Below, one piece after another: positions 4,901 to 64,000 of a stretch of DNA of 64,000 nucleotides. The position numbers were made by a program, and so were the translations under genes. The notes beneath the pieces were generated by a model. The model saw only the letters and a list, made by a program, of their open reading frames with translations, was not told where the DNA came from and ran no database searches. Positions within the stretch are counted from its first letter, which is position 1. Each line of letters begins with the position of its first letter. Source of the stretch: Owenia fusiformis (lineage: Eukaryota; Annelida; Polychaeta; Sabellida; Oweniidae); contig CAIIXF020000003.1 in the NCBI GenBank assembly GCA_903813345.2, positions 5,851,815-5,915,814 on the forward strand, read 5' to 3'.

Positions 4901-7900
4901 CACTTATGGACATGTCACACTTCACACTGTATGGCATGTTACACTTCACACTGTATGACATTTATCACACTTATGGACATGTCACACTTCACACTGTATG
5001 GCATGTTACACTTCACACTGTATGACATTTATCACACTTATGGACATGTCACACTTCACATGCACACTGTATGGCATGTTACACTTCACACTGTATGACA
5101 TTCATCACAGTCACTTATGGACATGTCACACTTTACACTGTATGTCATGTCACACTTTACACTGTATGGCATGTCACACTTCACACTGTATCGCATTCAT
5201 CACACTTATGAACATGTCACACTTTACACTGCATGGCATGTTACACTTCACACTGTATGACATTCATCACACTTATGGGCATGTCACACTTCACACTGTA
5301 TGGCATGTTACACTTCACACTGTATGACATTCATCACACTTATGGGCATGTCACACTTCACACTGTATGGCATGTTACACTTCACACTGTATGACATTCA
5401 TCACACTTATGGGCATGTCACACTTCACACTGTATCGCATTCATCACACTTATGGGCATTTTACACTTCACACTGTATGGCATTCCCTATTTCCAATTAC
5501 CTAAAGAATCCCAATGTGTCACTGTCCCTGATCCACTCCACTTTGTCATTACTCTCAAGTACGTCATCTTTTGGTTTACGGGAGAGTGACACTTTCTTGT
5601 TACGCCCCCTGGCACGAGGAACTGACACCACAACTTTTTCCTCCACAGATTCCTCAGCACTCTCACCCCCTGCAAGCCAGTTTAGTTTATAATATAACAA
5701 CAATAGGCATTTTGCCATTACAATGAAACAAGGATATACTGATAACATTCATCGGTCATAGTTTAGCTTTCAGGTAGCAATGTTTCCAAGCAAAACTAGA
5801 CAACAGCAACGCCAAAGCGTAGCAAATCCCATCGAACAGCCATGGCTGGTATTTTTACAAACAAAGTATATAGCAAAAATGGCAGCCATTTTTCAAAATG
5901 GCCACTTTCTACCAAAAGTGTCCACCCGTGTAGCTCAGCGGCAGCACAGGTACCTCTTACGCAATACATGTAGGTCCCGGATTCGATCCCCGGTTCAGGC
6001 AAGACTAAATTTGCTTGTTTGCGTGAAGTACTTCAGGGTGTTTGACTGAGTGGTCCGCAACTCGTACAAAAAGGCTGTGGTGTGTACTTATATGCCTATG
6101 TATAAGTGCACATAAAAGAACACAGGGCTCTTTCAAGGAGGGCTTTCTGGGTCTATCTTCCATGTTAATTATGTTAATTACGACCGTATATACGGGACAT
6201 ACCCAAGAGGTATTGCTCACCTTCATTGGTGGTAAACAAAATACAATACAAAAAAAATTAGACAGTGTGCCATGCTTATAGTATTCACATACCAAATATG
6301 AACAAAATCGCTCCACTACTTTTCGAGTAAGAGTAAAATATGTTAAAATGGTGGTCATTTTTCAAAATGGCCACCTTTAACCAAAAGTGTCATTAGACAG
6401 TGTGACATGCTTATAGTATTCACATACCAAATATGAACAAAATCACTCCACTACTTTTCGAGTTAGAGCAAAAATGGCCATCATTTTAAATGAGTGGCGA
6501 TTTTGAAAATAGCCTTTCGAGCAGAACTTCTACCCCCATAGGGTATATGTATACAAAATATGAACAAAATTGGGCCAACGGTATTTGAGTTATTGCCCGA
6601 ACAGACGTACGGAGGGACAGATGGACGGACGGAGGCATTCCCTATATCCCTCCTAACTTTGTTCGATGGGATAAATAGAATGTGAAATATGATTAATTAA
6701 ATATAAGTTTTACAGGCAGTCAATGAAAACTCAGAGGAACGAAGATACAATTTAGAATTTTTGTTATCAAACATGTCAAAGAGAGAACTTTAGAACATGC
6801 AACACTTGACTGACCTGGAAAGGTTGCTTTTACTTATTCATCTAATCATTTATCTCTTAAATGAAACAATAAATGATAACTATACCTGATTTCGACCTCT
6901 CTCTTAGTTGCTCAATGACAGCCAGTAACGAACTACAAATCCCAGACTTTGGTTTAGAGTCATCCGTCCCCTGGGAGTCAGTAACACTCACTGGTGGGCT
7001 ATTACGATCAGGCTCATGGTCCCCCTTTTGAGAGTCTTCTTGTTTTAAAGGCTGTCCAACAGGGTAAGCTGGGTTATAATTGGGGCCTTTTTTAAGTAAG
7101 GAAAGAAGTGTCAGGGCGGAGTCATCATCAGGAAGGGGTTTGTAAGGGTGTCGGGAAATCGGCTGTAAAGCCACATAGGCTGGGAGATCACCATGCTGTC
7201 CAATGTCAGGGGCTCTAGGGCTGTTATGTCTGCTGTCAACCAGGGTAAACCTAAAAAACAGATAATCATTTCAAAGATAATTCAAACATTGAAGTTTGCT
7301 TAAGCATTTGTTCTAAACACACATATTTATTATTTTACCAGAAATGTACAATAGGTCTGGTCATAATGTAAAGTACATTCTCGCATATAATTTTGATATT
7401 CTAAATTCATATTTCGACATTATGACCGATGAATACATACCTTAGGGCTAGGCACAAAAGCTTTCGAACCCACTCCCTTCAGTCATTTGGGGTACAGAAA
7501 ATATTTGTGCCTAGCCCTGTGGTATGATTTGTCGATATAAGACCTGCTCTTCGGTTAATATTTCTTAATTCAATACAAGGGAAAAGTGTTCTCTAAGACA
7601 GGCCTCTTAATACATAATTTAGAATAAATTGACTTTGGACATTGAACCTTCTTTTCTGTAATTACTGAAACTCATGTGTGGGTATACTTTTCAATTATGG
7701 AACCTGTCATACTGCTCACTAGATGAGCATTTCATTTCAAGCTTTCTTTTACATTTTCAGAATAGAAAGTCAATGTCAGTTAATGTCCAAGTCTATTGAA
7801 CATGTAAGTTTCAATTAGGCCTATCATGATTGTAAATTTTAAAAGAAATTCTGGTTACTAAAGGGGCAAAATTACAGCTACTGTATTTAAGATTTATAAT

Positions 7901-12570: not shown

Positions 12571-15500
12571 ATGCCCGAGTCCGTTGGTTCCGTGATTGGT
12601 AAATTTTGTGATGAATACATCAACAGCACTCCCAAGAAGCTGAAGATCGTTGACGCATACCTTCTTTACATCATGTTGACTGGGATAATTCAGTTCCTGT
12701 ACTGTTGTTTGGTTGGCACTTTCCCCTTCAATTCATTCCTCTCTGGATTCATTTCAACAGTGGCATCTTTTGTACTTGGAGGTAAGATATTCACAGTTTT
12801 GATTTCATGATGTAATGTATTTATGTTCTTTTTTCAAAATGGTTTTCGTGATCTCCTCTGTCGTAAGTCAGGGCCGTCAGATGGGGGGGGGTGCGATGGG
12901 TGCGACCGCACCCCCCTTTGTCACCTAGTCAAGTGAACTCGACTTAATGTTGTTGTTTCACGTTTCTTTTTGACGATTTGGATATTTGTTTTTTATTTTT
13001 GTTTTCAACATTTGCGTCGAGGATATTAAGGCCCGAATATTGCGGTAAATGCTTTTCTGCCCTCTATGCCCAACAAAAGTTACACAGATAAGATAATGGA
13101 TCCAATGCTTCAACTAGAATGTATTAAATCTTACCTTAAACACAGGAAACACTTGATAATTGAAGAAATGTAATCATTTTCGTATATGTTTGAACCAATT
13201 TCCAATATGGCTCTCAAGGTCACTCAAGGTCACTGAATACAGTCTAAATGTGAAACCATGCAACCAAAACGAAATCGTAATTATTTATTACCAACATATC
13301 TGTTTTCGGTTTCTTCACCCTCCTTGGTGTCTGAGAAGGCGATTCAATTGTCATAAGATGATGATAAACTTTTTCGAGTTGAAATCTCGATCTCAATATG
13401 GCTGCCGTAATTTATTGTAATTTCGTTTTTTCGCTTCACCTAGAGTTTTACTTTTACACAATCATTACCCAGAATGCATCTACACATGGGGAAAAAATTT
13501 GTTTCTAGAAAAATTCTTATACTTCTTCAATTATCAAGCGTTTGACGTGTGTAAGGTAGGATTAAATACATTATCGACGAAGAGCATATTCTAATACATA
13601 ATTTGTGTGATTTTGGTTGCCTAAACAGGCCAGGAAAGCATTTCCCTCAATTTACAACCGGGAAGTGTGTACGACCCTAGTATGCAAGAAAATAACAAAA
13701 AATAAATATCCAAATTATCAAAAAATAATGACAAATAAAGCATACGATGGTCGGATTTATATGACTATTGTCACCCCCCAAAAAAAATTTGAAAAAATTT
13801 TTTTTTGAAAAATATATTTTTTTGTAGATCTAATTTTTTTTTCATTGACTCATACACTTTGAAAGTACCCAGAAAGCACCCCAAATAGCATCTTAAAATT
13901 ATAAAATTTTCTAGGGGTATTAACCACCCGTCACACCCCCCCCCCCCCGCACAAAACAATGGAAAAGTTCTAAATTTATTTTAGAGTTTTGTCTCAGACA
14001 CTTTTTAAGTGCCCAGATATCATCAAATAGCTCCTTGAAATAGTTAGTGTTTCTGGTAGTCAAGTGAACTCGACTTAATGTTGTTGTTTCACGTTTCTTT
14101 TTGACGATTTGGATATTTGTTTTTTATTTTTGTTTTCAACATTTGCGTCGAGGATATTAAGCCCTGTATATTGCGGTAAATGCTTTTCTGCCCTCTATGC
14201 TCAACAAAAGTTACACAGATAAGATAATGCATCCAATGCTTCAACTAGAATGTATTAACTCTTACCTTAAACACAGGAAATACTTGATAATTGAAGAAAT
14301 GTAATCATTTTCGTATATGTTTGAACCAATTTCCAATATGGTTCTCAAGGTCACTCAAGTTCACTGAATACTGTCTAAATGTAAAACCATGCAACCAAAA
14401 CGAAATCGTAATTATTTATTACCAACATATCTGTTTTCGGTTTCTTCACCCTCCTTGGTGTCTGAGAAGGCGATTCAATTGTCATGAGACGATGATAAAC
14501 TTTCGAGTTGAAATCTCGATCTCAATATGGCTGCTGTTATTTATTGTAATTTCGTTTTTCGCTTCACCTAGAGTTTTACTTTTACACAATCATTACCCAG
14601 AATGCATCTACACATGGGGAAAAAAAATTTTTCCAGAAAAATTCTTATACTTCTTCAATTATCAAGCGTTTGACGTGTGTAAGGTAGGATTAAATACATT
14701 ATCGATGAAGAGCATATTCTAATACATAATTTGTGTGATTTTGGTTGCCTAAACACCTGCCAGGAAAGCATTTCCCTCAATTTACAACCGGGAAGTGTGT
14801 ACGACCCTAGTATGCAAGAAAATAACAAAAAATAAATATCCAAATTATCAAAAAATAATGACAAATAAAGCATACGATGGTCGGATTTATATGACTATGT
14901 TTCTGGGGGACTTACTCCCCCTCTTGCATCTTGCACTTGCATAACCCCCCCCCCCCCCCTCTGGCACCCCCCCCCCTTGACCCCCCCCAAAAAAAATTGT
15001 GATTTTCTCAAATTCTTTAATTGACTCATACACTTTGAAAGTGCCCAGAAAGCACCAAATAGCGTCGTAAAATTGTAAAATTTTCTAGGGGTATTAACCA
15101 CCTGTCACACCCCCCACAAAACAATGGAAAAGTTCTAAATTTATTTTAGAGTTTTGTCTCAGACACTTTTAAAGTGTCCAGATATCATCAAATAGCTCCT
15201 TGAAATAGTTAGTGTTTCTGGGGGACTTACTCCCCCTCTTGCATCTTGCACTTGCATAACCCCCCCCCCCCCCCCTCCTTGACCCCCCCCCCCAAAAAAA
15301 ATTGTGATTTTCTCAAATTCTTTAATTGACTCATACACTTTGAAAGTGCCCAGAAAGCACCAAAAAGCGTCGTAAAATTGTAAAATTTTCTAGGGGGAGT
15401 GGGCCACCCCTCACACCCCAAACAAAACAATGGAAAAGTTCTGAATTTGTCTTATGTATTGTCTCAGACACTTTTAAATTGCCCAGACATCATCAAATAG

Positions 15501-31200: not shown

Positions 31201-34200
31201 CTGAGTATGAATAGCATGGGGAATTTGATCATGGTAATTAAGATAAAAAAGTTACTCAGAGGAAAGACATCCTCCTAAGCAGGAGTCCAGAATCCGTACC
31301 TCCTTCTTCCCCCTGCTATAACCAATTTGGAAGCGCCTGATTAAACTGAATCTCATGATCTAATTATGCGCAATGACTTATACATGATTTCTGTCGCAGT
31401 GTTGCGACAGCCAATCAAATTGCGAGTTCTAATCGGGGATATGCTAACTGCTTATCGCAGGGGGTAAAAAGAAAGAATATATTCTAAAGGTATTCATTTC
31501 TTGAAAATATATTTGTACTTACCATCCTGCAGTATGTCAGTGATGTCTAGTTTCAAGCTTGGTACTATACGGTCATACATCTTGTAGTCCTTGCCAAAAC
31601 GTGGCATTTGGATTATGAAACACGATGGCACCTGAAGAATATGAACATTTCTAAAAATTAGTGCCAAGTTTTTCATAGTTAAACAGAAACATAGAGGGAA
31701 GAATAGAATTAGTCTAAGATTTTAAGAATCCACTGGTTAAATAAACATTCACTAATAGTTACAAGTTAAAAAAATGAAAATTCAGAAAGTTAAATATTAT
31801 ATTAAGTAAAATGAAAATTCAGTAAGTTGAACGAAAATTCCCTGTACTAAATAACCTTTTACCAAATCCATGTGGTCCAACTTTTTTTATATCTCTTTAT
31901 TGTTTTGACAACAAAAGTCATATGTCTCTTTTCCAACCTTGCTCTACAGTGCTTTTCTATATAAATCTTGCTCTACAGTTAGCTTACCTCTGCAAGTTTG
32001 ATATTGGTTGTCTGAAGGAAACTCAGACCTACAAGTTGTTGAGTTGTTGGAAGCACAATTCTGTTGTCTTTCTCTACAAACAGCTGGTAGAAGAATGAAT
32101 TCTGGCCTGAACTGAAATATGTATCAAGAGCATTTTATAATGGAGTGTCTCATGCACTCCAATTAGGCCTACTTATTGAAATAAGAAAATAGCAAAACAG
32201 AAAATGGAAAATAATCAATTTACAAAGTAGTTCTCTCAAATCATTAATTGGGAGGTTAATTTACACGATTGTTTTAAGAGAACTTGTGCATGAATGTGTA
32301 ATATTAGTCTTGCTTCTGACCCCCCCCCCCCCCCTATCTTCTTTTCTCATCAGGTAATGTAATGAAATGTTGTCTATGTCTATGTCAATAATCTGCAAAA
32401 GGCTAATAAGCCCATATAAAGCAGATATATAATTTAACAGTGATAGAGTTTGAATAGAATATAATTTAAAACCTTAACATTTAAAAATAGATCTATGGTT
32501 TGCAACTCATTAAAATGGAAAGGAACTTTCCTTATGTTGAAATACCCTGGGGTGACTGTCAGGCTAACCGCGTTGACATCACCCCTCTTTACCAGTAGTG
32601 CAGGCTTGTTGCTGTGCACTGGGGACCTTTTACATTAAAACATAGATCTATATTAAAAACACACCTATTTAATTGCAGTTATTGACATAGGCATAGTATG
32701 ATGATTTAAAACTACTTAGACTGTCACAGTCTAAGATGTCACCAGGTAGAGTGTTCCATTTAGCTATTGTCCTAGGGAAATAGCTAAATTTGTATACATC
32801 CGTTCTAGTTGATGGTTGTATGAACTTAGAAGGATGATACAGCCTAGTGTTGGTATTGATCTGTTGGCGGAAGTATGGAGGCACGTCGATGGCTGCTAGG
32901 TTTTGCTTTCCTTTGTAGAAAAGGAAAACTCTAGCAGCCTCTCGACGCTCCTTCAGTGGCTCCCACTGTAGGTCTTGAAGAGCTTTGGTGACGCAGCCTG
33001 GTTCCCTTGACACTGGGGATGAACTGGAAACGAGGGAGGTTTTGCCTCGTATCAAAATGGCGGCGCGTGAAAAAATTTCATTCGGTAAGATTTTTGTTTT
33101 TTACAATTTTCGTGCTTTTATCCTTCAAATTAAAACTTAATATTTGGCAAGTAAATAGTTCATAAGTTCAGGTTTTATAATATGATTACAAATTAGAAAT
33201 CAATACTGGCATTGCTAAGATATTTACATATCAATTCTCTCACTTAGGAAACGAGGCATGTTTCTCAAGGAAACGAGGCAGCTATATAGCATTCTTAAGA
33301 ATGAAACGAGGCAACCATATTTAATTAAAAATGTTTTGTTTTTATAACAGAACGGGGCCTACAAAAAGAAGCGTCCCTGTTCAAATGCTATTTCTGTAAC
33401 ACAGGAAACGACAACGTTGCTGATAATTCACGATAGCGACATCATAATATTTATGCCATCGACCATTAACATTTTTCATATGGCTAATAATCTAGAAAAT
33501 TTATGAATATTTCATTTACAAATGCATTACCATTTCTAGCATTTAAGAAAATACAAGGCATTAACATATGACACGTGTTGTAACTTAGTAATAACAAATA
33601 AGTCCATTTATCTGCTACCATGGTAACATACATGTATGTTCTAAGAAATACTTGGAAGTCATAATAAGTTTATAATTGTTCACAGTAAAATATGATGTCA
33701 GTCTAAGCGGTACGCATTTGTTCAGTTTTTGAAAGTTACTAAAATTGCTAAAGAATTTGCTATTGACGCAAAACGCCAGACGCCGAACTCCAGACGTCAG
33801 ACGCCGAACATTTCCACATTTCGTTGGACTATATGCAGAATAATTAACATAATTGATAGTGACATAATAAGGAACATACAGACATTAAAGAATACAAACA
33901 GTAAAATCCAATGTACACCAATGAGACAATGCCAGTGTGCTCCTTGACTCTGCTATTTTTGTAATATAGGCGAGTCATTTAATTATTACCATGGTCATTC
34001 GTTTTTTATCGTATCTGGAATTATATTCTATCAAATATAGCCATCTCGAGCAACAACAATGCCCCATTTGCGCACGATTAGTAGGGAGGTTTAACGACAC
34101 ATTTTTTAAAGAGAAGTGTACGTAAACGTGTAAAATTGCAATCTTCAGAGAACTAGTTCTTGTCTTCAACGTCTTTATTTGCATGAATGATTACAAAGGT

Positions 34201-37200: not shown

Positions 37201-40200
37201 GATCATTAAATGTAGACACTATCACAGAAAGAATAGTTGCCTCGTTGCAAGTCAAACATTGCCTCGTTTCATTGTTACAAAATGTAGACAGGTGCCTCGT
37301 TTCCTAAGTGAGACAATTGAAATGTAAATATCTCAGCAATGTCTGTATTGATTTCTAATTTGCAATCATATTATAAAACCGGAACTTATGAACTATTTAC
37401 TTGCCAAATATTAAGTTTTAATTTGAAGGATAAAAGCACGAAAATTGTAAAAAACAAAAATCTTACCGAATGAAATTTTTTCACGCGCCGCCATTTTGAT
37501 ACGAGGCAAAACCTCCCTCGTTTCCAGTTCATCCCCAGTGCTTGAGTGACATTTGGTTACAAACCTTGCTGCTCTTCTCTGTACCTGTTCCAACATATCA
37601 ATATCTTTTTGTCGGTATGGATCCCATGCCGAGCTGGCATACTCTAAATTAGGCCGGACAAGTGACTTATACGCCTGAGCCTTCACTTTTTCAGGGCATT
37701 GATGGAGGTTGCGCCTGAGAAATCCAAGCATCTTATTGGCTTTGGATACAATAGTTTGAATATGTGTAGTCCAGCGTAAGTTGTTTGTGATGTCAATACC
37801 TAGGTATGGGATGTGTGTTACCGACTTAAGGTTTTCCCCTAGCATGGTGTAATTGTGAATGATAGGGGATTTACCTTTGTGAATATTTAGCACATAGCAT
37901 TTTGATGGATGGAATTTCATTTGCCATGTTGATGCCCAGGAGACCAGTTTATCTAGATTCTCCTGTAGTGTTAATGCATCTTGCTTGCTTTCGACTGTCA
38001 TGAATAAAAGGCTGTCGTCAGCAAATAGTTTAAGACTGGCTGAGGATGATATGTTGTTGCCCATATCATTGATATAAACAAGGAAACAGAGTGGTCCAAG
38101 AACTGTTCCTTGAGGAACTCCTGATTTTACTGGAGTTTTTGAACTTGATTCACCATCGAGCACTACCTGCTGTGATCTTCCCACAAGCCAGGATCTGAAC
38201 CAGTTCAAGTTATTTTTGCGAATTCCATAATAGTCGAGTTTGAGCAAGAGGCGTTCGTGAGCCACCGTGTCAAACGCTTTGGAAAAGTCTAATACCAACA
38301 TGTCTGTTTGTTTATTGTTGTCGAGGGCCCGAGCTATATTCTCTATTGTATTGACAAGTTGGGTTTCACATGAGTGCTTTGACCTGAAGCCATGTTGGAA
38401 ATGTACTAGAATTTCATAGAGGTCAAAATGGGCCATAACATGATGGAATATAATATGTTCCATTATTTTACATGGAACTGACGTCAGAGATACAGGCCTG
38501 TAATTCACAGCCTCATCTCTGCGTGTGTTGGAGAAATAGATAAGGGTGGGGGAAATAGATAAGGGTGGGGGGTCTACAGTCTTGAAGTAATACTAACGTT
38601 ATATGATGACCCAAAAGGATCTATGTCTCTAAGTTTTTCCAAGGGCCATAAACATAACTTTTAAAACCCTATCCCTCAAAATTGGTCAAGTGCACATTAG
38701 TGGTGAAAATGCACATCAATTTATTTTTGGGCATTTCTTATCAATATCTAGGGCAACTAAATGTATACCTGAGAGTTATGAAAGGATCTGCCTTCATGAT
38801 TTGTTGCAGTAATGAATTCAGAAATTCTTCAGGGTCTTTTTCCTCTCCCATCATGCCTTGCACTGTTCCAAGCTGATCGAGAAGAGTCCGCAATTTGAGC
38901 ACCTTGTCTGCACGCACATAGAAATTCCTGTCAAAGAAAAAGTATGATTTTGAATTCAGCATCTCCATACAGATATGTTTAAGGAAGCAACTCCATAACA
39001 GGTGCTTTTATATCATTGTTGCATGTAAATGCATGTTCTTAAGTCTTAATGTCCATCTCATCATATGGAGTTTCAATCAAAAGCAAGTATTTTCTGGTTT
39101 AGTTCAGTCTACAAGGCAGGATTGCATTAAATATGTTAGCTAGAATTTTTTTAAATTTGTGTAAATGGTTATGCCATTGCCCTTTTCTAAGGAATTGGAA
39201 CTCACTTTCTGAGTGGGTTTATGATTCCCTCCTTTAGGACTGTCTGCACCTGGGAATATTGTGGGAGATCACTACTCTGTTTCTGGCGAAATAATATTGA
39301 GTCAAACACCTGGGTGAATGCAAACATACCTAAAAGAACAGTATGGAGAATTATATGTATTATGTTCATACTATTACATGGAAGCTCTGACAGATCAACT
39401 AAAAAGTCTAACTTGATTTGAAAAAATCAGTCAAAAATGTCACGACCTACCATTTGTTACAGACACTATTTGCTACAGATCCTGACTGCCGAACACCAAC
39501 CACTGTCCACAAAAAATATGAGACTATAACAATATGTCTCCACTTGTGGTGGTGACATAATAATGATCACAGTTTAGATGCAATTTACGCAATGACATTC
39601 ATTTTAATGTTGATTAATCTAGTACAGCATTTAAGCCCCTGTCAGTTGCTTGATTGCATCAGGACTATCTAGAAGGCATACACCCCCAATTTGCAAAACA
39701 ATTTTGCAGCACTGTACAGCGCTGTAAACAGTACTGTACATTGCAGATTGAGTACTGCGCTGTATAGCGATGTACAGTGCTATTCTAACATCACTTTTTG
39801 AACAGCATAGAACAGTACTGTTTTTACAGTATCGTACAGCACTGTTTTAGAAAACAGCAATGTACAGTACTGTTTTTACAGGGCTATCCAGCACTATTTC
39901 ATAAACAGCTCTGTATAATACTGCTTGAGATCGGCAGTGATGAGTCAACAAGAACAAAAGTAGTATACAAGTAAACTAACATGTATATAAAAGAATAGAA
40001 ATATCAGTGAATAAATGAAGAAACTTACTGAAAAGAGAAGCATCTAAATAGCAGGAATTATGATGGCCTTGTATGCCCTTCTTTCTCCCACATATCTCTT
40101 CTAAATTATTAAAGCACATAGGTGGCACTGTCCCAGGTACATCAGGGGTCTCTATACTACCAAATGCTGAAATACACAACAAAATATACTTTATATTTCT

Positions 40201-43200
40201 AGATCATTCAACTGCTCCCTTTGTGGTTTGAGGAAACGAAAATTATGAGGATTTTATCCTTATTTTCAAATTTCCATATTTTAGCTTGATTTAATATGGC
40301 CAAATAATAATGCTGAATGGTCAATCCTGTTATTAAATTGAGGGCTAAGGTCACTATGAATAAATCCTCACAAAAGTAAATGTCTTTGGGGCCTCTCAGT
40401 CAAACATTAAGACATTATCACCATTTTTCTGTTGACCATAACCATTATAGATAACCTCAATAGATAATCATCATTGAGGGATTTTGTATCAATATAATTG
40501 TAAGTAATAGTAAAATATGATTACAAAATTCAATTGTCATAGTTACATGTATGTCATAGAAAACAATTAATAAGGAATAACAATTGAGAAAGTATGAAAT
40601 ACTATTGAAATCAATAAAAATACTAGAGTATGCTCACTTTGGACCCCTGGGTTAGAGGTATCCTCAGCTACATCAGAAAACCTTGAATCTTTGTAACATT
40701 TGTCTAAGTACATGAAGAACCCTTTATTTGGGGGGCATGTGAAGTAACGCTCGTTGCCAAATGTTCCATCTGTGTATGTTGGAGATTCTTCCTCCTGAAG
40801 AAACATTAAAGCAATTAATCAAAACTAAATTACAAATTGATAGGATTGATGGCGGATCAATATTTTGACATGATTTTCACCTGAACTTTTTGAAAAATTT
40901 GAAATTTTTCTGCAATGCTTTACATTTAGCTCTGCATTTGATGTGAATTTAATCAGTTTTCAGGGACTCATAATCATAATAGTAATGGGAGTGAACTAAT
41001 GTAGTATATCACAACAATTCTGAAAACTATAGAATTTTTCATTGTTAATAAGATTAATATTTAAAGCTTCTTCATAATATTCACCATTTCCAGTCCAGCT
41101 ATAGGTTGCTTGCTTTTTGACGTTGGGAGAATGCCAATCCATCGAATGACTCCATACACCACTAGCCTGCCCCGTACCTCTACCATGGAGCCCACAGCAA
41201 GGTCACCATTGTATGTATAAGCTTCAGTGTCAAACTTGCCCTCCTCAGGGGGTCCTACTTCTCTAGATGACTTGAATCTGTTCTGATCTGAGAAACTGTT
41301 TTCCACTGTAAGTTTAGGAAATAACATGTTGTAGCCTTCTCTAATGAATGACAGCATCATTAAATGAAGCAAATGTTTGAATAAGTCCATGAAATCTTTT
41401 ATCAACTGATCAAAGTCTAAGAGCTTTTCTAAGTAATATGACATCATTAATTTACAAAACAGAAACAACTCCACGGAGTAGCAAATCCCACCGAACGGCA
41501 GTTGAGTTACCAAAGATTACGAAAATGAAAATGAAAAATGGCAGCCATTCTGAAGATCAGCCGCCATCTTAAAATTTTTTTCTCGAACAGAGCTACTGTG
41601 TTTCTAGGCATCAGCATATAAAATTTGAACCAAATCTGTTCACTGGTATTTGACTTATCAAATATTATGTTTTTTCTTATGAAAAATGGCTACCATTTTG
41701 AAATTCAGCCGCCATCTTGAAAAGATTTTCTCAAACAGATCTACTGTGTCCCTAGGAATCATCATATAAAAAATGAGCCAAATCTGTTCGCTGGTATTTG
41801 AGTTATCAAAGATTATGTTTTTTACGAAAAATGGCGTCCATTTTGAAATTCAGCCGCCATCTTGGAAATTCTTTCTCGAACAGATCTCCTTTGTCCCTAG
41901 GTATCATCATATAAAATTTGAGCCAAATCCGTTCACTGGTATTTGAGTTATCAAAGATTACCTTTTTTACGAAAAATGACCGCCATTTTGAATATCAAGC
42001 CGCCATCTTGAAAATTCTTTCTTGAACAGATCTATTGTGTCCCTAGGCATTATCATATAAAATTTGAGCCAAATCCGTTCATTGGTATTTGAGTTATCAA
42101 AGATTACGTTTTTTTATGAAAAATGGCTGCCATTTTGAAATTCAGTGGCCATTTCGAAAATCCCATCTTGAGCGAAGCTCCTTTGTCCCTAGGCATCACC
42201 ATATAAAATTTGAACCAAATCCGTTCACTGGTATTTGAGTTACCAGAGATTACGTTTTTTTACGAAAAATGGCCGCCATTTTGAAATTCAGCGGCCATCT
42301 TGAAAATTGTAACTTGAACAGATCTACTGTGTCCCTTGGCATCATCATATACAATTTGAACCAAATCCGTTCACTGGTATTTGAGTTATCAAAGATTAAG
42401 TTTTTTTACGAAAAATGGCCGCCATTTTGGAATCTAGCCGCCATCTTGAAAATTTTTACTCGAACATATCTACTGTGTCCCTAGGCATCAGCATATAAAA
42501 TTTAAACCAAATCCGCAAACTAGTATTTGAGTTATTAAAGATTAAATTTTTTACGAAAAATGGTGGCCATTTTGAATTCAGTGGCAATATTGAAAATTCC
42601 TTCTCGAGCAGAGGTCCTACACCCATAAGGCATAAGCCTATAAAATTTGAATCAAATCCGTGAAACGGTATTTGAGTTATCGCCCGGACAAACAGACGGA
42701 CGGACGGACAGACGAACGGACGGATGGACGGACGGCTTTCCTATATCCCTCTCGAACTTCGTTCGGTGGGATAATCACTATAGTAACCACAATATACAAG
42801 AAATATTCAGAACACCTTCTTTCTTTTATGATTAGACAGATGATTCTGAGTATAAAAAACAACAATTTCTGCATGATCAGAGTCAATCCAGGAGCAATTT
42901 TAATGTGAAATTTCATATTTTCTTCTCTATGAGAACCAAGGGTTAATTCTGGACATAAATGTTAAATGTAACATCATGAAATTATTTGACTTTTGATATC
43001 AAATTCAAATTGTCTGAATTTTCCTTGAAAGAACCGTTGTACATTGCTATAACATTCAAATATGGGAGGATCATAAAAATCATCTTACAATCAAATCATA
43101 TTTTCTGGTGGTCAGTACAAAAGAAAAGAAAGCTAATGATAAGTAATCACCATAAGTTTTGTTCTGATAGTATAATGGGTTATAGCGGAATAAATGAGTT

Positions 43201-46200: not shown

Positions 46201-49200
46201 TGTCACAATTTTTTGTTTCACTATATCTGTCTCATGTCTTTTTTCTAAAAAGTTCAACAGTTCTTTATTTTAAGGTTATCTGGTAAAAACTAAAATTGGA
46301 CATTTTTACACCTTAAATCTTCAACAACTTTTATATTTGCTTAGATTGATGGATCATTTCTAGAAAAGAAAATTAGGATTGTAAGAAAATCATTGGATTG
46401 GAGATTTTGAAGATTTCTTTCTTCTAATATTTACACTCTGTACTCCTTTAATTTATTTAATGCAGCATTTCTATGTGTCAGCTACTCATTGTACAGACAT
46501 TGGGTATTAAAACATTTGCTGCATGATATGTTGATTTTGTAGGAATTGTGAAAGTGGTGTGCAATAGTTAAAAGCAAGTTACTGCCAAAGTCAGACATTT
46601 CACAATTAAAAATCATGCAACTAAAAAATAATCAATATATTTGAGAGCACAAAAGTTGAGCTTATCATGAATAAAGTTCTTGGGGTTATCCTCTATAACT
46701 CTTGTCCTTTGAAACTTTGGCTGGTCATAATTGAAAAAAGGTTTTGCTAATTGCTTCTTTTACTGACAATGGCAACCTGCCATGCACTTGTATAAAAACT
46801 ATTTTTACAAGTTAGCTTGCCAATAATACACTGTGGATCATGCAGACAACACTTGTAATGTATTATGAATGCAAACTGAAACTTACCAGCTGGGTTGGTG
46901 TTGAATTCATTCTCTTTTACAAGTCCACATACAGGAATGAGAGAGGCATGGTTGTGTTTTGTCTTGAAGAGTTGCTGGTCATTGTATTTACCTGTGCCTG
47001 AACCCACAGGACGATCCTGAAATATCAGTAGCAATAATATATAGGTCATTGATCTGAACCCACATGATGATCCTGAAATATCAGTAGCAATAATATATAG
47101 GTCATTGTATTTACCTGTGCCTGAACCCACAGGACGATCCTGAAATATCAGTAGCAATAATATATAGGTCATTGGTCTGAACCCAAAGGATGACCCTGAA
47201 ATATCAGTAGCAATAATATATAGGTCATTGTATTTACCTGTGCCTGAACCCACAGTATGATCCTGAAATATCAGTAGCAATAATATATAGGTCATTGGTC
47301 TGAACCCAAAGGATGACCCTGAAATATCAGTAGCAATCATATATAGGTCATTGGTCTGAACCCACAGGATGATCCTGAAATATCAGTAGCAATATTCATT
47401 GTATTTACCTGTGCCTGAACCCACAGGATGATCCTGAAATATCAGTAGCAATAATATATAGGTCATTGTATTTACCTGTGCCTGAACCCACAGGACGATC
47501 CTGAAATATCAGTAGCAATAATATATAGGTCATTGGTCTGAACCCAAAGGATGACCCTGAAATATCAGTAGCAATCATATATAGGTCATTGGTCTGAACC
47601 CACAGGATGATCCTGAAATATCAGTAGCAATATTCATTGTATTTACCTGTGCCTGAACCCACAGGATGATCCTGAAATATCAGTAGCAATAATATAGGAA
47701 CATTTTCTGATCCCAAAGATTTCAGAAACTAATAGTGATACTTCCTTCCACTGAGTATGTTTCTCATATGCTCTCCGTGCAATGCTTCAAAATTGTGACA
47801 ACTTAAATTACATCTTTAACTTTGTTTGTTGGAACCATCGTAAGTTAATTGATCTTGAAACTTAACTAACTTAAAGACAACTCTCTAATTTATCTGTAAA
47901 GCAACAGATTTGCATGATACAGTATTACTGATATACTCACAAATTCAATGCCGGCAGTGAAATCAGTTCTACTGTTTTCTTCCCCCTCATTTATAGGCAG
48001 GAACCCTAACCATTTCACTACACCATGTTCTGGGCCATCATCACTGTACCATACAATCCTGTCTCCAACCTATGCAAGTAAAATTTAGAGTTAAACTTTG
48101 CTTGTCTTTTTCAAGCAATAGACTGGGTCTATGGTCATTGGAGAGATGTTGATATTCTATACTTCAATTATTCGTAACAATAAAGGCTTTGATTACAGGC
48201 TACTCTTGAAAGGTATTACCAGAGCTTAAAATAAGCATGACATCAGTTAAATTAGGTTACAAATAAGGCTAGGAAAGGTTATATACATTATAAACTCTAT
48301 ATAGGTTTAATCCATTAATTAGGAACAACTCCTTTAACTACTCTGTTGTATCTCAAGACCAAGAGTCAAACTGAATAACATATCAACCCGACTAACTTGA
48401 ACCAATTCAACTGATTTATTATAATATAGAAATACAATAATGTGTCATTTACAACATGTACTTGACAGTGTTAATGTGAGTCCAGATTTTATATATTATT
48501 CACTTTTAAATAGGTCTCACTGAAGTACAGAAGAAGGATTTACCCAGTATCTTACCTTTAAAGTACATTTATCAAGTTCATCTTCTTGGGAAATTGACAG
48601 TGGATTTTTTCGACTCCTATGTTCAGATCGTCCCTCTGCATTCTGTGAAATGTGATCTTTTGGATGTGGGTTATTATCATGAGGGACCTTACTACTGGGT
48701 GGAGATTGCGGTGATTGGGGATTGCGACTTCGAACTGAGCTACTTTGAACTGGCAGTTTATGGCTAGCATGTACTTTTGGAACAACATCAGATGTTACAG
48801 CATTGCTATAAGATTTCTGAGACAAAGACTGTGAGTCAGTTAAAGAAGGGGATCGCCTTGGTAATGAACTGCTTGATCTTGCGGTATAATGTGCAGATTT
48901 TGTTGCAACATGTTTCTGATTATGGGCTCTTATCTTGTTCATTGGGACAAATACCCCACAGTCTTTTGGACAATGAAAGTAATGATTCTTCTTTATAGTT
49001 CCGTCTGTGTTTCCTTTACCTTTTGCCGAAGGTGGGTCCTGAAAACAGAATGACCAAAATATTTATTTGACAACAAAAACAAGTCTTTGAAATAGGTAAG
49101 CCAGGCCGCTACTTAACAGATGGAACTAGGCATCAGAGTACCAGTAAATTGCAGCTACTATATACATGCGGTACTAACTTCGACCGTTAATTTGTATTTT

Positions 49201-55111: not shown

Positions 55112-58100
55112 TCATAAGTCTTTATTGTATCCTAAATTATCACTGGTTATATAAGCACTTTGGATCTCAACATTTTCCTTCTCTTTGTTTACTTTCATCT
55201 CCTCATCATTCATGGAATATGAATTTACACCAGAAAATTGATTAAGCACGTCAAGCTTTCTGGGAAAGACTCCCTTTTCAAATAATAATTTGGTTAATTC
55301 TGAGATTAAAACAGTCGTTAAGATGGCAACAATGATACTAAATATTCGCACAGGGAAAAGTTGTTCTTCAAACCCATACGGTGGATAAGGGATGAAAGGT
55401 GCAAGGTTCATTAGTGACTCCCCTCCTCCAATACGAAGTACTAACGCTAAAGATGAGCCAATCAAAGCACCGTATCCATTTGACACCTCAATATACATGC
55501 TGCATACCAACTGGGGAAACACTGTCACCAAGGTGATATCAGTACCAAAGTTAACAAGTCCATATATGCTGTCTCCAAATATGGCAGTGATCGACGCCAG
55601 TACTCCGATTATAAATATTGCTCCGCGTTGTACCCAAAGTAGTTCTTTCTCAGACGCCTAGAATGCAACATGTTCTAAATTAAATCTTTCTTGGTAATAA
55701 CTACGAGTATGAACGCTATAATAGTGCTTGTTAAAAAGTCTATATGTGCCGCTGAGTCGGCGGGCAAAGCTCCTTTTACCATCCGTATGTTATGCGTGAC
55801 AACCACTAAAGTGTGCAATTTGAATTCTCTTTTGAAGGAAAACTCTGTATATTATGTGACTACCTTACCTTTTTGCGTATAATAGCTCTGTATATATTGT
55901 GGGAGAACATTGATGCTGATCCTAATAAGGCAGAATCAACTGATGACATCACAGCTGCAGCCACGCTACACAATCCTGGAAACCCGAATAAAAGATTTTT
56001 GTATTGAATAGACTTTTCAATGTGATACATCACTAGTGGCAGCAACAAAGAAGATATTACCCACCAATTATTGTACCTGGTCTTAGCGGGAGGTGATACA
56101 TCACTAGTGGGAGCGACAAAGAAGATATTACTCACCAATGATTGCACCTGGTCTTAGTGGGAGGAGATACATCACTAGTGGGAGCGACAAAGAAGATATT
56201 ACTCACCAATGATTGCACCTGGTCTTGGTGGGAGGTGATACATCACTAGTGGGAGCGACAAAAAAGATATTACTCACTAATAATTGCACCTGGTCTTAGT
56301 GGGAGGTGATACATCACTAGTGGGAGCGACAAAGAAGATATTACTCACCAATAATTGCAACTGGTCTTAGTTGGAGGTGATACATCACTAGTGGAAGCGA
56401 CAAATAAGATATTACTCACCAATGATTGCACCTGGTCTTAGTGGGAGGTGATACATCACTAGTGGGAGCGACAAAGAAGATATTACTCACCAATGATTGC
56501 ACCTGGTCTTAGTGGGAAGTGATACATCACTAGTGGGAGCGACAAAGAAGATATTACTCACCAATGATTGCACCTGGTCTTAGTGGGAGGTGATACATCA
56601 CTAGTGGGAGCGACAAAGAAGATATTACTCACCAATAATTGCACCTGGTCTTAGTGGGAGGTGATACATCACTAGTGGGAGCGGCAAAGAAGATATTACT
56701 CACCAATGATTGCAACTGGTCTTAGTGGGAGGTTATCCATCATTAGTGGGAGCGACAAATACCAATTATTGCACCTGATCTTAGTGGGAGGTGATACATC
56801 ACTATTGGGAGCGACAAATAAGACATTACTGACCTATGCTTGTAACTGGTCTTGGTGTGAGGTGATACATCACTAGCGATGGCGACAAAGAAGAAATTAC
56901 TCACCAATGCCAGCAACAAAGAAGATATTATTACTCACCAATGATTGCATGTCTTGGTGTGAGGAGATACATTACGAGTTTAGTCTACATTAGCTTTATT
57001 GTTATTTACAGTGGTAGGTTTACATCAGTTAATTCAGTACAATATAAAAAGAAGTAATGAAATAACAACCCAGCCCACGTAAGCTTATCAACCCCTTAAA
57101 GTAAAGATGCTCATTTATGAATACTAAATCTTTTTGAGTATAATTCATTAAATAAATTTTATAAATTGCATTTCTTTTAAAATAGTCAATATTAACAAAA
57201 TGAGCAGCTTTTCAAATAAATACTGGAACTTAAGTTCCACAGTAGATTCTTTTTCTTCAAAAATTTGGTGATTTTGTAAATATTTTTCCCTTATTTCCTA
57301 TGATAGAGCCCATGGCCAGATTTACATAAAGTACATTTTCCATTTTCCAATTTTTCCTTTTTAAATTTACCCGTTTCAATTTCCAGTGGCAAAATTCCCA
57401 TACGTACAGTAATTGTGGAATTAAAGATCTTTCTAACTTAGATTTAAGCAATAAATATGACTCGATCAGTCTTGTATAAGGTTTCTTGTGAATTAAATCA
57501 TTCCAAGTTTTCTTATAAGTAAAGAGTAGTCTCTTTTTGGCATTTTTATATAACAATACTTTAAATTCTCAAAATTCTCTTGACAACCACATCTACTAGT
57601 ATTTAAAGAGCCCTTGACTCCATTTACTATTTACAGTTACTAGTGGGAGCAACAAAGAATACATCACTCACCAATGATTGCAATTAACTGGTCTTGGTGT
57701 GAGGTGATACATCACTAGTGGGAGCAGCATAAAATACATCACTCACCAATGATTGCAACTGATATAGGTGTGAGGAGATACATTACTCGTGGGAAGAACA
57801 AAGAAGACATCACTAACCAATGATTGCAAAGGGTCTGTTGATGTGATGTAATACATTACTAGTGGGAGCAACATAAAATACATCACTCACCAATGATTGC
57901 AACTGGTCTTGGTGTGATGGAATACATTACTAGTGGGAACAACATAAAATACATCACTCACCAATGATTGCAACTGGTCTTGGTGTGATGGAATACATTA
58001 CTAGTGGGAACAACATAAAATACATCACTCACCAATGATTGCAACTGATATAGGTGTGAAAAGATACATTACTTGTGGGGGGAACAAAGACGACATCACC

Positions 58101-60807
58101 CACCAATGATTAAAAAGGGTCTTGATGTGATGTAATACATTACTAGTGGGAGCAACATAAAATACATCACTCACCAATTATTGCAACTGGTCTTGGTGTG
58201 AGGTGATACCTCACTAGTGGGAGCAACATAAAATACATCACTCACCAATGATTGCAACTGGTCTTGGTGTGAGGTGATACATCACTAGTGGGAGCAACAA
58301 AGAAGCATCACCCGTTGCAATAGGATCTCTTTCGTACTTGGTACTATTCCAATCTGTCGAAACTCCAATGGCTCCAATAGTGAGTGGGAAGATGCCCAAG
58401 ATGAACGTAATAATTCCCCCGACAATTCCAATTATTTTAGCACCTCTTACGGACTTTGCTGATAAGAATCGTTGGAATGTAGATTGCCATGGTATAGCTC
58501 CTAGACTCTAGAAAGAGTATATATTTATAATTGGAAACCACTCTACCAATCATTCTAACAATACCATCTCAATAGGATTGAATTTTACCTCTGATTCTAT
58601 AAATTTTTTCTTTCACAAGCCTAGCAAATTACACGCGACACAATATTTCAAGATTATCAATTGATCTCTCATAATGAAATAAGAATAATGTATAAGAATA
58701 CACATTTACCGTTAATACAAAGAAGTCTATCCATGCGCCAATCTGAATCGGTTTAATGTTACCTAACCATTTGTCCTGCGCTTCACTTAGGTTAACATGT
58801 TCATTGGTGGCAGCGAATGGGATAGCAATACCCTAAAGAGATGAGGAGGCAGAAGGTTGTAAACTGTGAATTAGCTAGTCACTAAGTGAAACCAAACATC
58901 ATACCTCATTGTCCATTGTGGAGTAAATCAACCAACGAGAACGTTTTTATTGTCAGAGGGCGTACGGTACGAAAAATATCTTCATTAGGTATAAGTGTGT
59001 ACATACCATACCCACAACAAGTAAAGCTAACTCTACAATGTCTGTGTATGCCACGGCGACCATCTGCCCGACCATGGTATAGAACACTGCTATGGCCGCT
59101 GATATGACGATGGACACAACCTTGTCTAACTCAATTATAACACTAAGACTGGTGCCTGGAAGCGAAAAATATTTTTGAAATACAACCTTAAGAAAAAAGA
59201 AAATAATGGGCAATTTTTGTGTTGTTTGGACTGACTGCTTTGGGATGAGAGAAATGCGTGCAATTAAAACTATGGCTGACTTCAGATGAGAGAAATGTGC
59301 GCAATTTAAACGATGATTGACTTCAGATGAGAGAAATGTGTGCAATTAAAACTATGGCTGACTTCCGATGAGAGAAATGTGTGCAATTAATATAAAATGA
59401 TGACTGAATTTTGGCCCAGTGGAAGGTGTACAATAAAATAAGAGTTCAGAATGACTGAAATGTCTGCAATTAAAGCAATGACTGCATGGCTTCAGAATGA
59501 GAGAAATGTGTGCAACTGAAACAATGACTGGCTTTGGACAGAGGAAGTGAATGCAATTAAAACAAGACTGACTTCAGAATAAGAATAAGAAAAATGTGTG
59601 CAATTAAAACAAAACTGACTTCAGAATAAGAGAAATGTGTGCAATTGAAACGATGACCTTAACTAAGACAATAGTGTGCATTATATTGGATTAATGGTTG
59701 ACTTTGAACTAAGGTATAGAGAAATGTGCGCAGTTAAAATCATGGCTGAATTTAGGCTGTTAAAATGCTTGCAATTTAAACAATGACTTACTTTGGACAG
59801 AGAAAAATGTTTTTAATTAAAGCGATGGCTGATTTCAGAATGAGAGAAATGTGTACAATTAAAGCAATGCCTGTCAAAGAATATGTATTCAATTAAAACA
59901 ATGACTGGCTTCAGACTGAGACTAAATGTATGCCATTAAAACGAGACTAACCTAGGGCTGATAGAATTGCCGCTGACCAGAAGATATCTGCCAGAAGAGT
60001 CGCGACGAACAAGCATGCGGTTGCCTCTCTTCCATATTTTGCGTTGAATGGGTCCAGAAACGTCAAATATTCTTTTTTACGCATCGGTCCTCCAAATAAA
60101 AACGAAGCTAAAAATTGAAGAGAACACAGCAATCATAAATGCATTGGTTGCGAAATAAAACAAAATTATATTCATACATGAAAGAATGAATTATCAGTTA
60201 TTAATCCACTTACACAGGAAAAGTCCACACATTATTCCTAAAGGCGGGATCGTCCAGGCAACCCCACCTAAAGCCATACCCTCAGCTAGTCCGTTCAAGA
60301 AGCCACCGCCGATGTACGTCGCTTAAATTTAAAAAAATTGAATAGTGAACATTTATCTAAGAGACTGGGCTAACATAATATCTTTCTATATTTCATGTAA
60401 AGTAGAATATGGTTGACCGAATAGCCGATCGGACAGGGTTGGACACAGATACTGTGAGTGCATATAATATTCTTAATTTACCTTTTAATCTTAATAGAGA
60501 AACATTGTTACAACGTGGCATCCAAATTACTCATTGTTTGTGATGCAATGTAAGATATTGTGTACAATGAGAGATCTTAGTTATTACAATCAAGAATTAA
60601 TAATGGCACTACCCAAAATGACAAATTCGACATACCTGACATTGTTAAAATCCCAACTCCCAGTCCCAGCTTCCTTCCTGCCACCATTGACAGCTCTGTC
60701 TCTGATGCTCCGGGGGCTTTGAAACATCTCCCTGCTACTATTCCAGTCACAAGTACAATCACGTAGAAAACAACCAGAACTATCACTCCTACTACATCAA
60801 CTGCCAT
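55112..60807 (-). CDS. SLC5A7: High-affinity choline transporter (SLC5A7-like), 8 exons, 540 aa
   Basis: This is a sodium/solute symporter family protein; SLC5A7 (CHT1) imports choline at cholinergic terminals for acetylcholine synthesis. Exons in order: 60807-60636, 60321-60214, 60107-59952, 59155-59007, 58832-58710, 58507-58246, 55975-55869, 55657-55112; phases agree and give 540 aa (580 in human CHT1). Family stretches include VAGRKLGLGVGILTMS, TYIGGGFLNGLAEG, MRKKEYLTFLDPF, FWSAAILSALG, GAIPWQSTFQRFLSA, LTIGAIGVSTDWN and SVAAAVMSSVDSALLGSASM. The sequence is hydrophobic throughout, as expected for a 13-segment membrane protein. The exon 6 end at 58246 was chosen because it completes LLLPLVMYHLTPRPVAIIG, which lines up with human CHT1; an earlier GT at 58311 would delete it. 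Introns 3 and 6 are full of minisatellite. Several paralogues are likely, so the substrate is inferred. Confidence 0.93.
56025..58245. repeat. Minisatellite made from the end of choline transporter exon 6 plus its 5' splice site
   Basis: In transcript sense the ~71-bp unit reads TTGTCGCTCCCACTAGTGAT, TATCACCTCCCACTAAGACC, then GCAATCATTG followed by GTGAG, the same as the last ~60 bases of exon 6 (LPLVMYHLTPRPVAIIG) plus the donor. About twenty imperfect copies fill intron 6 in two blocks, 56025-56985 and 57640-58245, split by a LINE fragment. Units near the real exon match it best (TCACACCAAGACCAGTTGCA); distal units have drifted to CTCCCACTAAGACCAGGTGC. This gradient points to growth outward from the exon edge. 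Confidence 0.9.
56990..57640 (-). mobile_element. LINE 3' fragment inserted in the exon-6 minisatellite
   Basis: On the minus strand two phases together resemble the C-terminal end of a non-LTR retrotransposon: KKPYTRLIESYLLLKSKLER in one frame and RMGILPLEIETGKFKKEKL then GKCTLCKSGHG, a zinc-knuckle region, in another. It is frameshifted, short and 5' truncated. It interrupts the array after GATACATTAC, and the array resumes with GTTACTAGTGGGAGC, sharing TTAC at the junctions. Confidence 0.6.
59200..59950. repeat. Degenerate ~43-bp repeat filling choline transporter intron 3
   Basis: The unit contains GAGAGAAATGTGTGCAATTA, AAACAATGACTGACTTCAGA and variants, about 16 copies. It runs directly up to the 5' splice site of exon 3: the intron begins GTTAGTCTCGTTTTAATGG in transcript sense, matching GCCAGTCATTGTTTTAATTG in the array. 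Confidence 0.8.
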
Positions 60808-63000
60808 CTTGATAACCAGCCCTATGCATTCACAGTTTGTTATTCATGCTATTCTGCCATTGAATTCGTTTGTTGAAATACTCTCAATATCAATGTGTGG
60901 TTAAAAAATGCATATGATTTGAGGTCGCATTTTATTTTAAAGTCTCAATTCGTTCAAACAAGTCTTAACTGGATGTCTGCTTACTTACACGATGAACTAC
61001 TATATAGTACTTCAACAAACATAAATTATGACAATTCTTTCAGACATTCATCTTTATAGAATTACGTTTATGATAGTACATATCCTTGTTATATTCCTAT
61101 ACTGTATACATGTAAGTGCGTTTCATTGCTGTTCTACTGTTTTGACTTTAAACGAATACTAATCCTCTTTTGTCAGTTTCGTATGAAAACGGTATGTTTA
61201 AAATTTTAATGTTGGTTAATGTAACGTTTGGTACATAAATTAAAACGTTTCTTTGTGTATACTTGAACTTAGGTTTCCTTTAATTTTCTAAAGAAAGGAA
61301 ACCTGCCCTTACAGACGATTATAACTGCATACTGCTTTCATATATTTTAGGAAACATTCCTGTGAATAGAGCGAAATTTGGAAGGCCATATACTGGCACA
61401 ATACGATGGATCAAAAGAATGTGTGCAGTAGCAGTTTGTTTTTCACTTCAACACCCTTGGTATACGCAGCTAACGAAAATTGACCGGTACGGGTCAAAAG
61501 CTGGACCGGTACGGGTTAACGGTTTTATTTGAATTTAAAATAGCCATAACTTGCTCAATATTGACTTCCTCGTGTCTAATTTGAAATATATGATGCCTCC
61601 CGATGCTTTTAAGTACCCCAATTTTTTACAGATTTTTAAACGGACCAAAACTCTCTAAATGCGCATTTATGCTCTTTTCTCTCGAGAACGACTGTCTCAT
61701 TTTCACGATAACTTTTATTTAGTACTTCTAACATATAAGATCTATTTTTCCCCATCAAGGTATGATGTAAATGACATGCTATTCACATCTTGTGAGTTTC
61801 AATGACGCGCGTTTGATTTTATAAAAAATGCCAAACTTTGTGACAAAGAATTTCATCAGCTATTGTCCCGAACCGGTCCGTCTTCTCGCTGCAAGCAGAT
61901 TGCCCCGAACCGGTCCGTCTTCTCGCTGCAAGCAGGATGAAATTCTTTGTCACAAAGTTTGGCAATTTTTATAAAATCAAACGCGCGTCATTGAAACTCA
62001 CAAGATGTAAATAGCATGTCATTTACATCATACCTTGATGGGGAAAAATAGATCTTATATGTTAGAAGTACTAAATAAAAGTTATCGTGAAAATGAGACA
62101 GTCGTTCTCGAGAGAAAAGAGCATAAATGCGCATTTAGAGAGTTTTGGTCCGTTTAAAAATCTGTAAAAAATTGGGGTACTTAAAAGCATCGGGAGGCAT
62201 CATATATTTCAAATTAGACACGAGGAAGTCAATATTGAGCAAGTTATGGCTATTTTAAATTCAAATAAAACCGTTAACCCGTACCGGTCCAGCTTTTGAC
62301 CCGTACCGGTCAATTTTCGTTAGCTGCGTATACCAAGGGTGTTCAATAGTGTTTATTGTAGTTTAACACATCCTGAATGATGACGAGGTAAACACTGCAT
62401 GAATTAACATACCTTACTGACTTAGCAATAGACTGTACCGATCAACATACATTTTAAGGCATATACTCCTAAAATATTTGGCCATCATCAATAGATTACA
62501 CTGCCTTGTGAGAGGACTTGAACAAAAACACTCCATTGAAAGCATTTTCAATGACACATCTTGGAATAAGGCTCGGGGTTACAAATTTGAAATCGACTTC
62601 CGATTCAGGATCTATGACCTTTTGAAATCTCTAAATAATCTCACCAACTGCAACCAAATTAGCAATCAGATGCTGTCAAGAATAGAACATACATTTTCTT
62701 TCTCATTTTCTCATCAATGTGAGATATCAAAATCTTTTTTTTTTTATTAAAAAGTCTGAATCTGGAGTCTTGAGTGGAACTTTGTTCGATTTCACCAACC
62801 TAGTTTAAATTGATTTCTCTAAAGAAATGATAATATATCATATGAACAAGAGAAAATGAACTTACATATAATGTCACAATAATTTTGAAATTATTGCGTT
62901 CAAATTAGTTTTTTGCATTGAACTGATTAAAGAACTGAACATATTGTACCACTTGTGCGATGGAAGGTACGCTTACAGAGATGTTCCACTTAGCAGGTTT
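60808..63000. other. Intergenic upstream of the choline transporter
   Basis: Apart from the 890-bp palindrome at 61452-62341 no feature was recognised. A 90-codon plus-strand frame at 62478-62750 has no similarity that I know and no splice context. The transporter promoter presumably lies just above 60807. Confidence 0.45.
61452..62341. mobile_element. 890-bp near-perfect palindromic element with CAC/GTG ends
   Basis: Two arms of about 410-430 bp are reverse complements with almost no mismatches, from CACCCTTGGTATACGCAGC at 61452 to GCTGCGTATACCAAGGGTG at 62341. They meet at GAATTTCATC/GATGAAATTC around an ~80-bp centre holding two direct copies of CCCGAACCGGTCCGTCTTCT. TTCAA flanks both ends (61447-61451 and 62342-62346), a 5-bp target duplication. 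Subterminal motifs GACCGGTACGGGT occur twice near each end. The high arm identity implies a young insertion or arm homogenisation. No coding content. Confidence 0.9.
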
Positions 63001-63114: not shown

Positions 63115-63265
63115 TTAAAATGTCTCAACTGTCCTAAACTATCACTGGTTATATAAGAGCTCTGGTACTTAACATTTCTCTTCTCTTTGTTTACTTTCAT
63201 CTCCTCATAATTCATGGAATATGAATTAACACCAGAACATTGATCAAGCACGTTAAGCTTGCTAC
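63115..63265 (-). pseudogene. Remnant of a second choline transporter copy (exon 8 tail)
   Basis: The minus strand encodes KLNVLDQCSGVNSYSMNYEE and KVNKEK, close to the C-terminal tail of the gene at 55112 (KLDVLNQFSGVNSYSMNDEE). By eye the DNA is close to 88% identical over about 130 bp, including TTCATGGAATATGAATT. The membrane-spanning part of exon 8 is missing on its 5' side, where unrelated sequence follows. Just beyond lies an array derived from the exon 7 edge. This is a decayed tandem duplicate, or the 3' end of a rearranged paralogue continuing outside the window. Confidence 0.7.
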
Positions 63266-63429: not shown

Positions 63430-64000
63430 ATATTTTGCATCAACCATGCAAATAATAACTCTATATATTTTGTAACAACCATACCTTTGTACAAAGAATA
63501 GCTCTGTATATTATGTGACTACCTTACCCTTTTGCAAATAATAACTCTGTATATTATGTGACTACCTTACCCTTTTGCAAATAATAACTCTGTATATTAT
63601 GTGACTACCCTTACCCTTTTGCAAATAATAACTCTGTATATTATGTGACTACCTTACCCTTTTGCAAATAATAACTCTGTATATTAGGTGACTACCTTAC
63701 CCTTTTGCAAATAATAACTCTGTATATTATGTGACTACCTTACCCTTTTGCAAATAATAACTCTGTATATTATGTGACTACCTTACCCTTTTGCAAATAA
63801 TAACTCTGTATATTATGTGACTAGCTTACCCTTTTGCAAATAATAACTCTGTATATTATGTGACTACCTTACCCTTTTGACAAATAATAGTTCTATATAT
63901 TATGTGACTACCTTAGCTTTTGACAAATAATAACTCTGTATATTTTGTGACAACCATACCTTTTTACGTATATATATATTGTGACAACCATACCCTTTTA
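63430..64000. repeat. 43-bp minisatellite built from a choline transporter exon 7 end plus 5' splice site
   Basis: The unit in transcript sense reads CAGAGTTATTATTTGCAAAA, GG, then GTAAGGTAGTCACATAATAT. The single-copy exon 7 border at 55869 reads TACAGAGCTATTATACGCAA, AAAG, then GTAAGGTAGTCACATAATAT. About eleven copies run to the window edge, with more degenerate ones at both margins. The array belongs to the second, broken transporter copy. Confidence 0.88.

Follow-up and report, generated by a model that had tools for sequence, protein, structure and literature searches.

Tandem copies of an exon end and its 5' splice site in intron 6 of a CHT1/SLC5A7-like gene

The 64,000-nucleotide stretch of DNA analysed here (hereafter, the window) carries on its minus strand a complete CHT1/SLC5A7-like gene, whose eight exons join into a 541-aa open reading frame (540-541 codons) with a single terminal stop. 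Joining of the coding sequence placed exons 1 to 5 at 60807-60636, 60321-60214, 60107-59952, 59155-59007 and 58832-58710, exon 6 (262 nt, ending ...VAIIG in phase 1) at 58507-58246, exon 7 at 55975-55869 and exon 8 at 55657-55112. The predicted protein matched human CHT1 (8j74) over nearly its full length (phmmer, E=9.6e-123), with a gap-free alignment at the exon 6/7 border. The authentic exon 6 donor region (58237-58248, minus strand) reads TTG|GTGAGTGAT, the donor GT starting at 58245. The full coding sequence was obtained from this first donor only, and protein conservation suggests that it is the one used. Introns 1, 2, 4, 5 and 7 measure 106-314 nt, while the two introns that bear arrays, 6 and 3, measure 2270 and 796 nt, respectively.

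Intron 6 carries 22 tandem 71-bp copies of the exon 6 end and its donor. Each unit reproduces ~55-60 nt from the 3' end of exon 6 and runs on through the donor a few bases into the intron; the array together with one 652-nt insert covers all of the 2,270-nt intron except 46 nt. A tandem-repeat search, as proposed in the initial annotation, recovered two 71-bp arrays, at 57632-58299 (9.3 copies, 84% matches) and 56022-56909 (12.7 copies, 90% matches). Combining TRF with a unit table and an alignment, the proximal block (57632-58245, minus strand) was resolved into eight decoy units of 71-75 bp, with their last exon-like bases at 58175, 58104, 58033, 57962, 57891, 57818, 57747 and 57672. The distal block (56022-56979, minus strand; TRF, unit table and tree) contains 14 decoy units, one of them a 34-bp rearranged partial unit, and forms a separate, mostly homogenised subfamily, the edge of which ends in mid-unit. 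Between the blocks lies the non-repeat, AT-rich insert (approximately 56980-57631; 652 nt, 28% GC), bordered by TTACGAGT and TTACTAGT, which possibly represent an 8-bp target-site duplication; no terminal inverted repeats were seen on it. The 46 nt at the 3' end of the intron (55976-56021, minus strand) are also non-repeat and include the acceptor TTTCCAG. The minisatellite described in the initial annotation is thus real in that copies of the exon 6 end with their donors are present in 22 units, but it is not continuous, as the 652-nt stretch splits it.

With the exception of the rearranged 34-bp unit, the units were 0.83-0.96 identical to the last 46 nt of exon 6, whereas the 122,690 other positions of the window gave a mean identity of 0.256 and a maximum of 0.543. 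The similarity is thus far above chance and, together with the coding nature of exon 6 and the gap-free human CHT1 alignment at its border, it upholds the earlier proposal that the array originated at the exon 6 edge. As to direction, exon 6 is conserved and protein-coding, while the divergence of the units from it is similar at codon positions 1, 2 and 3 (0.20, 0.20 and 0.15) with no codon-position constraint; thus the units are non-coding copies and exon 6 is the original. In a scan of CHT exon edges in which exon 4 had no separate query, exon 6 alone showed copies in its intron above the level of shuffled sequences. The 71-bp unit found no match in viral and prokaryote collections, and an Rfam scan of 55-64 kb gave no matches.

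The donor has indeed been multiplied about twenty-fold, as had been stated before. Among the 22 decoys, 16 retain the exact 9-mer of the real donor, TTG|GTGAGT, and the remaining six are altered to GTGGGT (twice, including the last decoy, which is thereby weakened), GTTAGT, GTCAGT, GTATTT and TTA|GTGAGT. In pairing with the U1 5' end, the real donor and its 16 identical decoys share the same predicted energy, -8.7; the position weight matrix used alongside for these donors is generic and meaningful as a ranking only. Strong donor-like sites occur at 7.6 per kb in the array versus 0.66 per kb elsewhere on the minus strand (~12-fold). In the pooled array, the mean minority-base frequency was 0.048 in the donor columns versus 0.134 in the rest, and 5% of other 9-nt windows were as low, which might hint at constraint; in the distal block alone there was no such effect (39%), and no sign of selection keeping the distal donors was found.

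The initial annotation had further held that similarity to the exon is highest in the closest units and had read a stepwise expansion from this gradient. Neither claim was supported. Unit identity did not fall with distance from exon 6 (Spearman rho +0.29, P 0.19), and the same best value, 0.957, was reached by the nearest unit and by a unit 2,039 nt away; the mean identities were 0.880 for the proximal and 0.854 for the distal block, the latter including the rearranged unit. Instead, the tree and the identity matrix revealed homogenised blocks. Distal units D13-D20 are 92-100% identical among themselves, with the edge-side units D09-D12 diverged, and the proximal block is diverse, with duplicate pairs (P04 and P05, 100%; P02 and P06, 94%; P03 and P07, 92%). 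In addition, the exon's CTTCTTTG is retained in many distal units while most proximal units have TTTTATG, which speaks against equating near with young. This two-family pattern is best read as local duplication and homogenisation within blocks, rather than copies peeling one by one off the exon.

A second array in the window multiplies acceptors rather than donors. It lies on the minus strand at 46977-47696 (TRF) in a CYLD-like gene, identified by its matches to 2vhf (E 2.5e-42) and CAP_GLY (E=8.9e-12), and comprises 11 decoy acceptors with exon starts, CTGATATTTCAG|G. Including the true site, 12 of 12 acceptor and exon-start copies have an intact CTGATATTTCAG|G, with identities of 32-36/36 against a background maximum of 22/36. 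The true start of the CAP-Gly exon, at 47016, is the most downstream copy, and the decoys, which are TTTCAG acceptors, all precede it. The real site thus heads the exon 6 donor array and closes the CYLD-like acceptor array; in both cases the array would stay hidden in the intron through normal use of the outermost exon copy. If used, nine of the 11 decoy acceptors introduce a stop, whereas two (47139 and 47262) keep the reading frame open and would lengthen the protein by 41 or 82 residues. CAG|GTAAAT is also present in the exon and in five of the decoy copies; paired with the acceptor, it would mark out micro-exons of 25 nt.

A third array, of 12 units of 43 bp (63447-63965, minus strand; TRF), matches the end of CHT exon 7 and its donor (27 exonic and 16 intronic nt), the best units agreeing at 39/43 positions with the exon 7 border of the CHT1-like gene against a background maximum of 25/43. 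It adjoins a truncated version of the exon that encodes the CHT C-terminus (63132-63263, 89% identical to 55130-55261) and so appears to sit in a partial CHT paralogue with its last exon mostly missing; we infer that it is linked to the paralogue's own exon 7, which would lie outside the window. In the intact CHT1-like gene, ATATACAGAG occurs once on either side of the exon 7 donor, at a spacing of 43 nt, and this pair at a single-copy exon 7 locus could seed such an array. Overall, three of nine long arrays span splice sites versus 0.6-1.3 expected (P 0.03-0.14, with 50-100 splice sites assumed), a post hoc enrichment within the 64-kb window that is suggestive at best and too weak to claim.

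Two further intronic arrays were noted. A diverged 41-bp array (59245-59937, minus strand) occupies most of CHT intron 3; it was rejected as a case of the same kind, as the similarity starts ~8-15 nt past the donor and the donor is not spanned. In a C2H2 zinc-finger gene, one intron is filled by a 1.6-kb array of ~24/67-bp units (3847-5485, minus strand) that begins ~19 nt beyond the donor; inspection by eye revealed no resemblance to the exon.

Splicing from any of the 22 decoys of intron 6 would lead to an identical 325-aa product ending ...VAIIGE* at a TGA stop that precedes the new junction by 63 nt or more. A decoy-spliced message would thus yield a truncated product, probably non-functional and NMD-prone. 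As every decoy gives the same truncation, array-dependent protein isoforms are excluded. The most distal decoys would leave introns of 89-302 nt, comparable to the gene's other introns, and intron-definition splicing could therefore in principle favor them.

Arrays of this type resemble the mirages of amphioxus, of which the one in Adh3 was reportedly described by Canestro in 2002. Mirages are minisatellite-like tandem repeats across exon-intron borders in which the AG/GT signals are repeated; they are found in Adh3, in the globins BflGb6 and BflGb9 and in TnC, with similar repeats in PGBD5 (PMC3087553, PMC3902484). They affect both 5' and 3' borders, evolve in concert and differ in length between haplotypes, and no interference with regular splicing was reported (PMC3087553, PMC3902484). 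Similarly, the CHT 71-bp unit extends across an exon-intron border and carries the GTGAGT signal; both border types are affected in the window, at the CHT exon 6 donor and at the CYLD-like acceptor at 47016; and the diverged edge units (D09-D12) beside the uniform D13-D20 indicate a concerted evolution that left out the edge. The CHT array is larger, with 22 units of 71 bp compared with three to six units of 150-160 bp in BflGb6, and is described here from one sequence. It carries every mirage feature that sequence by itself can test and, as judged from these, belongs to this already known class.

Taken together, we consider it very probable that the intron 6 array is a mirage, in which the exon 6/intron 6 border was tandemly duplicated and the array then grew and was homogenised block by block. 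The founding event would have been a tandem duplication of a segment straddling this border, presumably between short direct repeats ~70 bp apart. GTGATG is located 66 nt before the exon 6 end and again at intron +5, within GTGAGTGATG just past the donor, and a slip between these copies would yield a unit of ~70 bp (71 with one extra T). The exact founder junction is blurred by a second word shared by exon and intron, AGTGATGTAT, 41 nt from the exon 6 end, and by the mid-unit distal edge. Growth and block-wise homogenisation may then have proceeded by slippage or unequal exchange. All extra copies lie downstream of the authentic donor and would be spliced out with the intron when the first donor is used; for this reason array growth would be nearly neutral and the array could persist, probably as a harmless by-product of DNA slippage.

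The initial annotation had also suggested that the decoys shift splicing or sequester U1, which is speculation. In the first of these alternatives, the decoys would compete with the real donor, and the immediate stop that decoy use would place in the message would reduce CHT output by way of NMD, with an effect proportional to the length of the array. Several of our observations fit such poison splicing: the 16 decoys that equal the real 9-mer in sequence and U1 pairing energy, the common VAIIGE* product with its stop ahead of the new junction, and the ordinary size of the introns left by the most distal decoys. There is also a precedent in the minisatellite of human IFI6 (6-16/G1P3), two downstream repeat units of which serve as donors and give rise to protein isoforms, according to a passage of PMC4526556 citing Turri 1995. 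However, normal splicing is reported for the published mirages in Adh3, globins and TnC (PMC3087553, PMC3902484), the last decoy has the weaker GTGGGT and the distal donors bear no mark of selection, and we therefore regard poison splicing as unlikely. A broader proposal, that exon-edge tandem growth is, in this genome, a recurrent route of intron lengthening through both donors and acceptors and that array length sets the rate of CHT poison splicing, with copy-number alleles tuning transporter dose, appears very unlikely.

A string of strong 5' sites might alternatively recruit U1 snRNP, which would either deprive other sites of it or keep the lengthened intron from being polyadenylated prematurely. 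The ~12-fold density of donor-like sites would suit this idea, but the cellular U1 pool dwarfs the 22 donor sites of one gene, and the CYLD-like array multiplies acceptors, such that a cause shared by the two arrays would not be U1; we judge it extremely improbable. Equally hard to credit is an assembly artefact or a chance similarity. Misassembly is frequent in tandem arrays, and a draft genome apparently contained a misassembled version of one published mirage locus (PMC3087553); however, the unit-exon similarity is far over chance, and a simple assembly error would not produce diverged units in two ordered subfamilies with a unique stretch between them. The array copy number given here nevertheless depends on the assembly and could still be wrong.

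Repeats and splice sites coincide in other known systems as well. Like IFI6, the CHT gene has repeat units at the end of an exon that provide several splice donors; however, the IFI6 donors reportedly give isoforms, whereas all 22 CHT decoys would truncate at the same residue, which excludes IFI6-type isoforms that vary with the decoy chosen. Intron gain by tandem duplication in Drosophila (PMC2891723) likewise begins with a duplicated segment that crosses or carries a splice site, but at CHT an existing intron was lengthened; intron gain was rejected here, since the coding sequence is intact and unchanged and a single intron occupies the intron 6 place. Dual-specific splice sites in UBC (PMC10809524) also occur in every tandem repeat unit, although the UBC repeats are coding and stochastically spliced while the CHT units are intronic.

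The CHT array thus offers a large and clear natural case of choosing among many identical 5' splice sites; with 16 decoys that match the real donor exactly, strength alone cannot account for donor choice. Its acceptor-side twin in the CYLD-like gene permits a mirror test. The array further illustrates a simple route from a short intron to one of 2.3 kb with the protein unharmed. Should the host be something other than a lancelet, mirages have a wider distribution than PMC3087553 and PMC3902484 describe.

Other repeats were also observed in the window. Upstream of the CHT gene, a near-perfect inverted repeat (61447-62346) has 411-nt arms, 99% complementary, around a 78-nt spacer consisting of a 37-bp tandem pair, and looks like a foldback element. 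A 393-aa open reading frame within the CYLD-like gene (37414-38592, minus strand) resembles a non-LTR retrotransposon reverse transcriptase, and a 248-bp stretch at 37293-37540 recurs inverted at 33011-33258 (97%). An array of eight 146-bp units with a GACG tail (41533-42735) may belong to a dispersed repeat family with its own tandem repeats, because the tail region resembles 6470-6674. Finally, an 845-bp direct duplication with 97% identity occupies 12926-13768 and 14057-14898.
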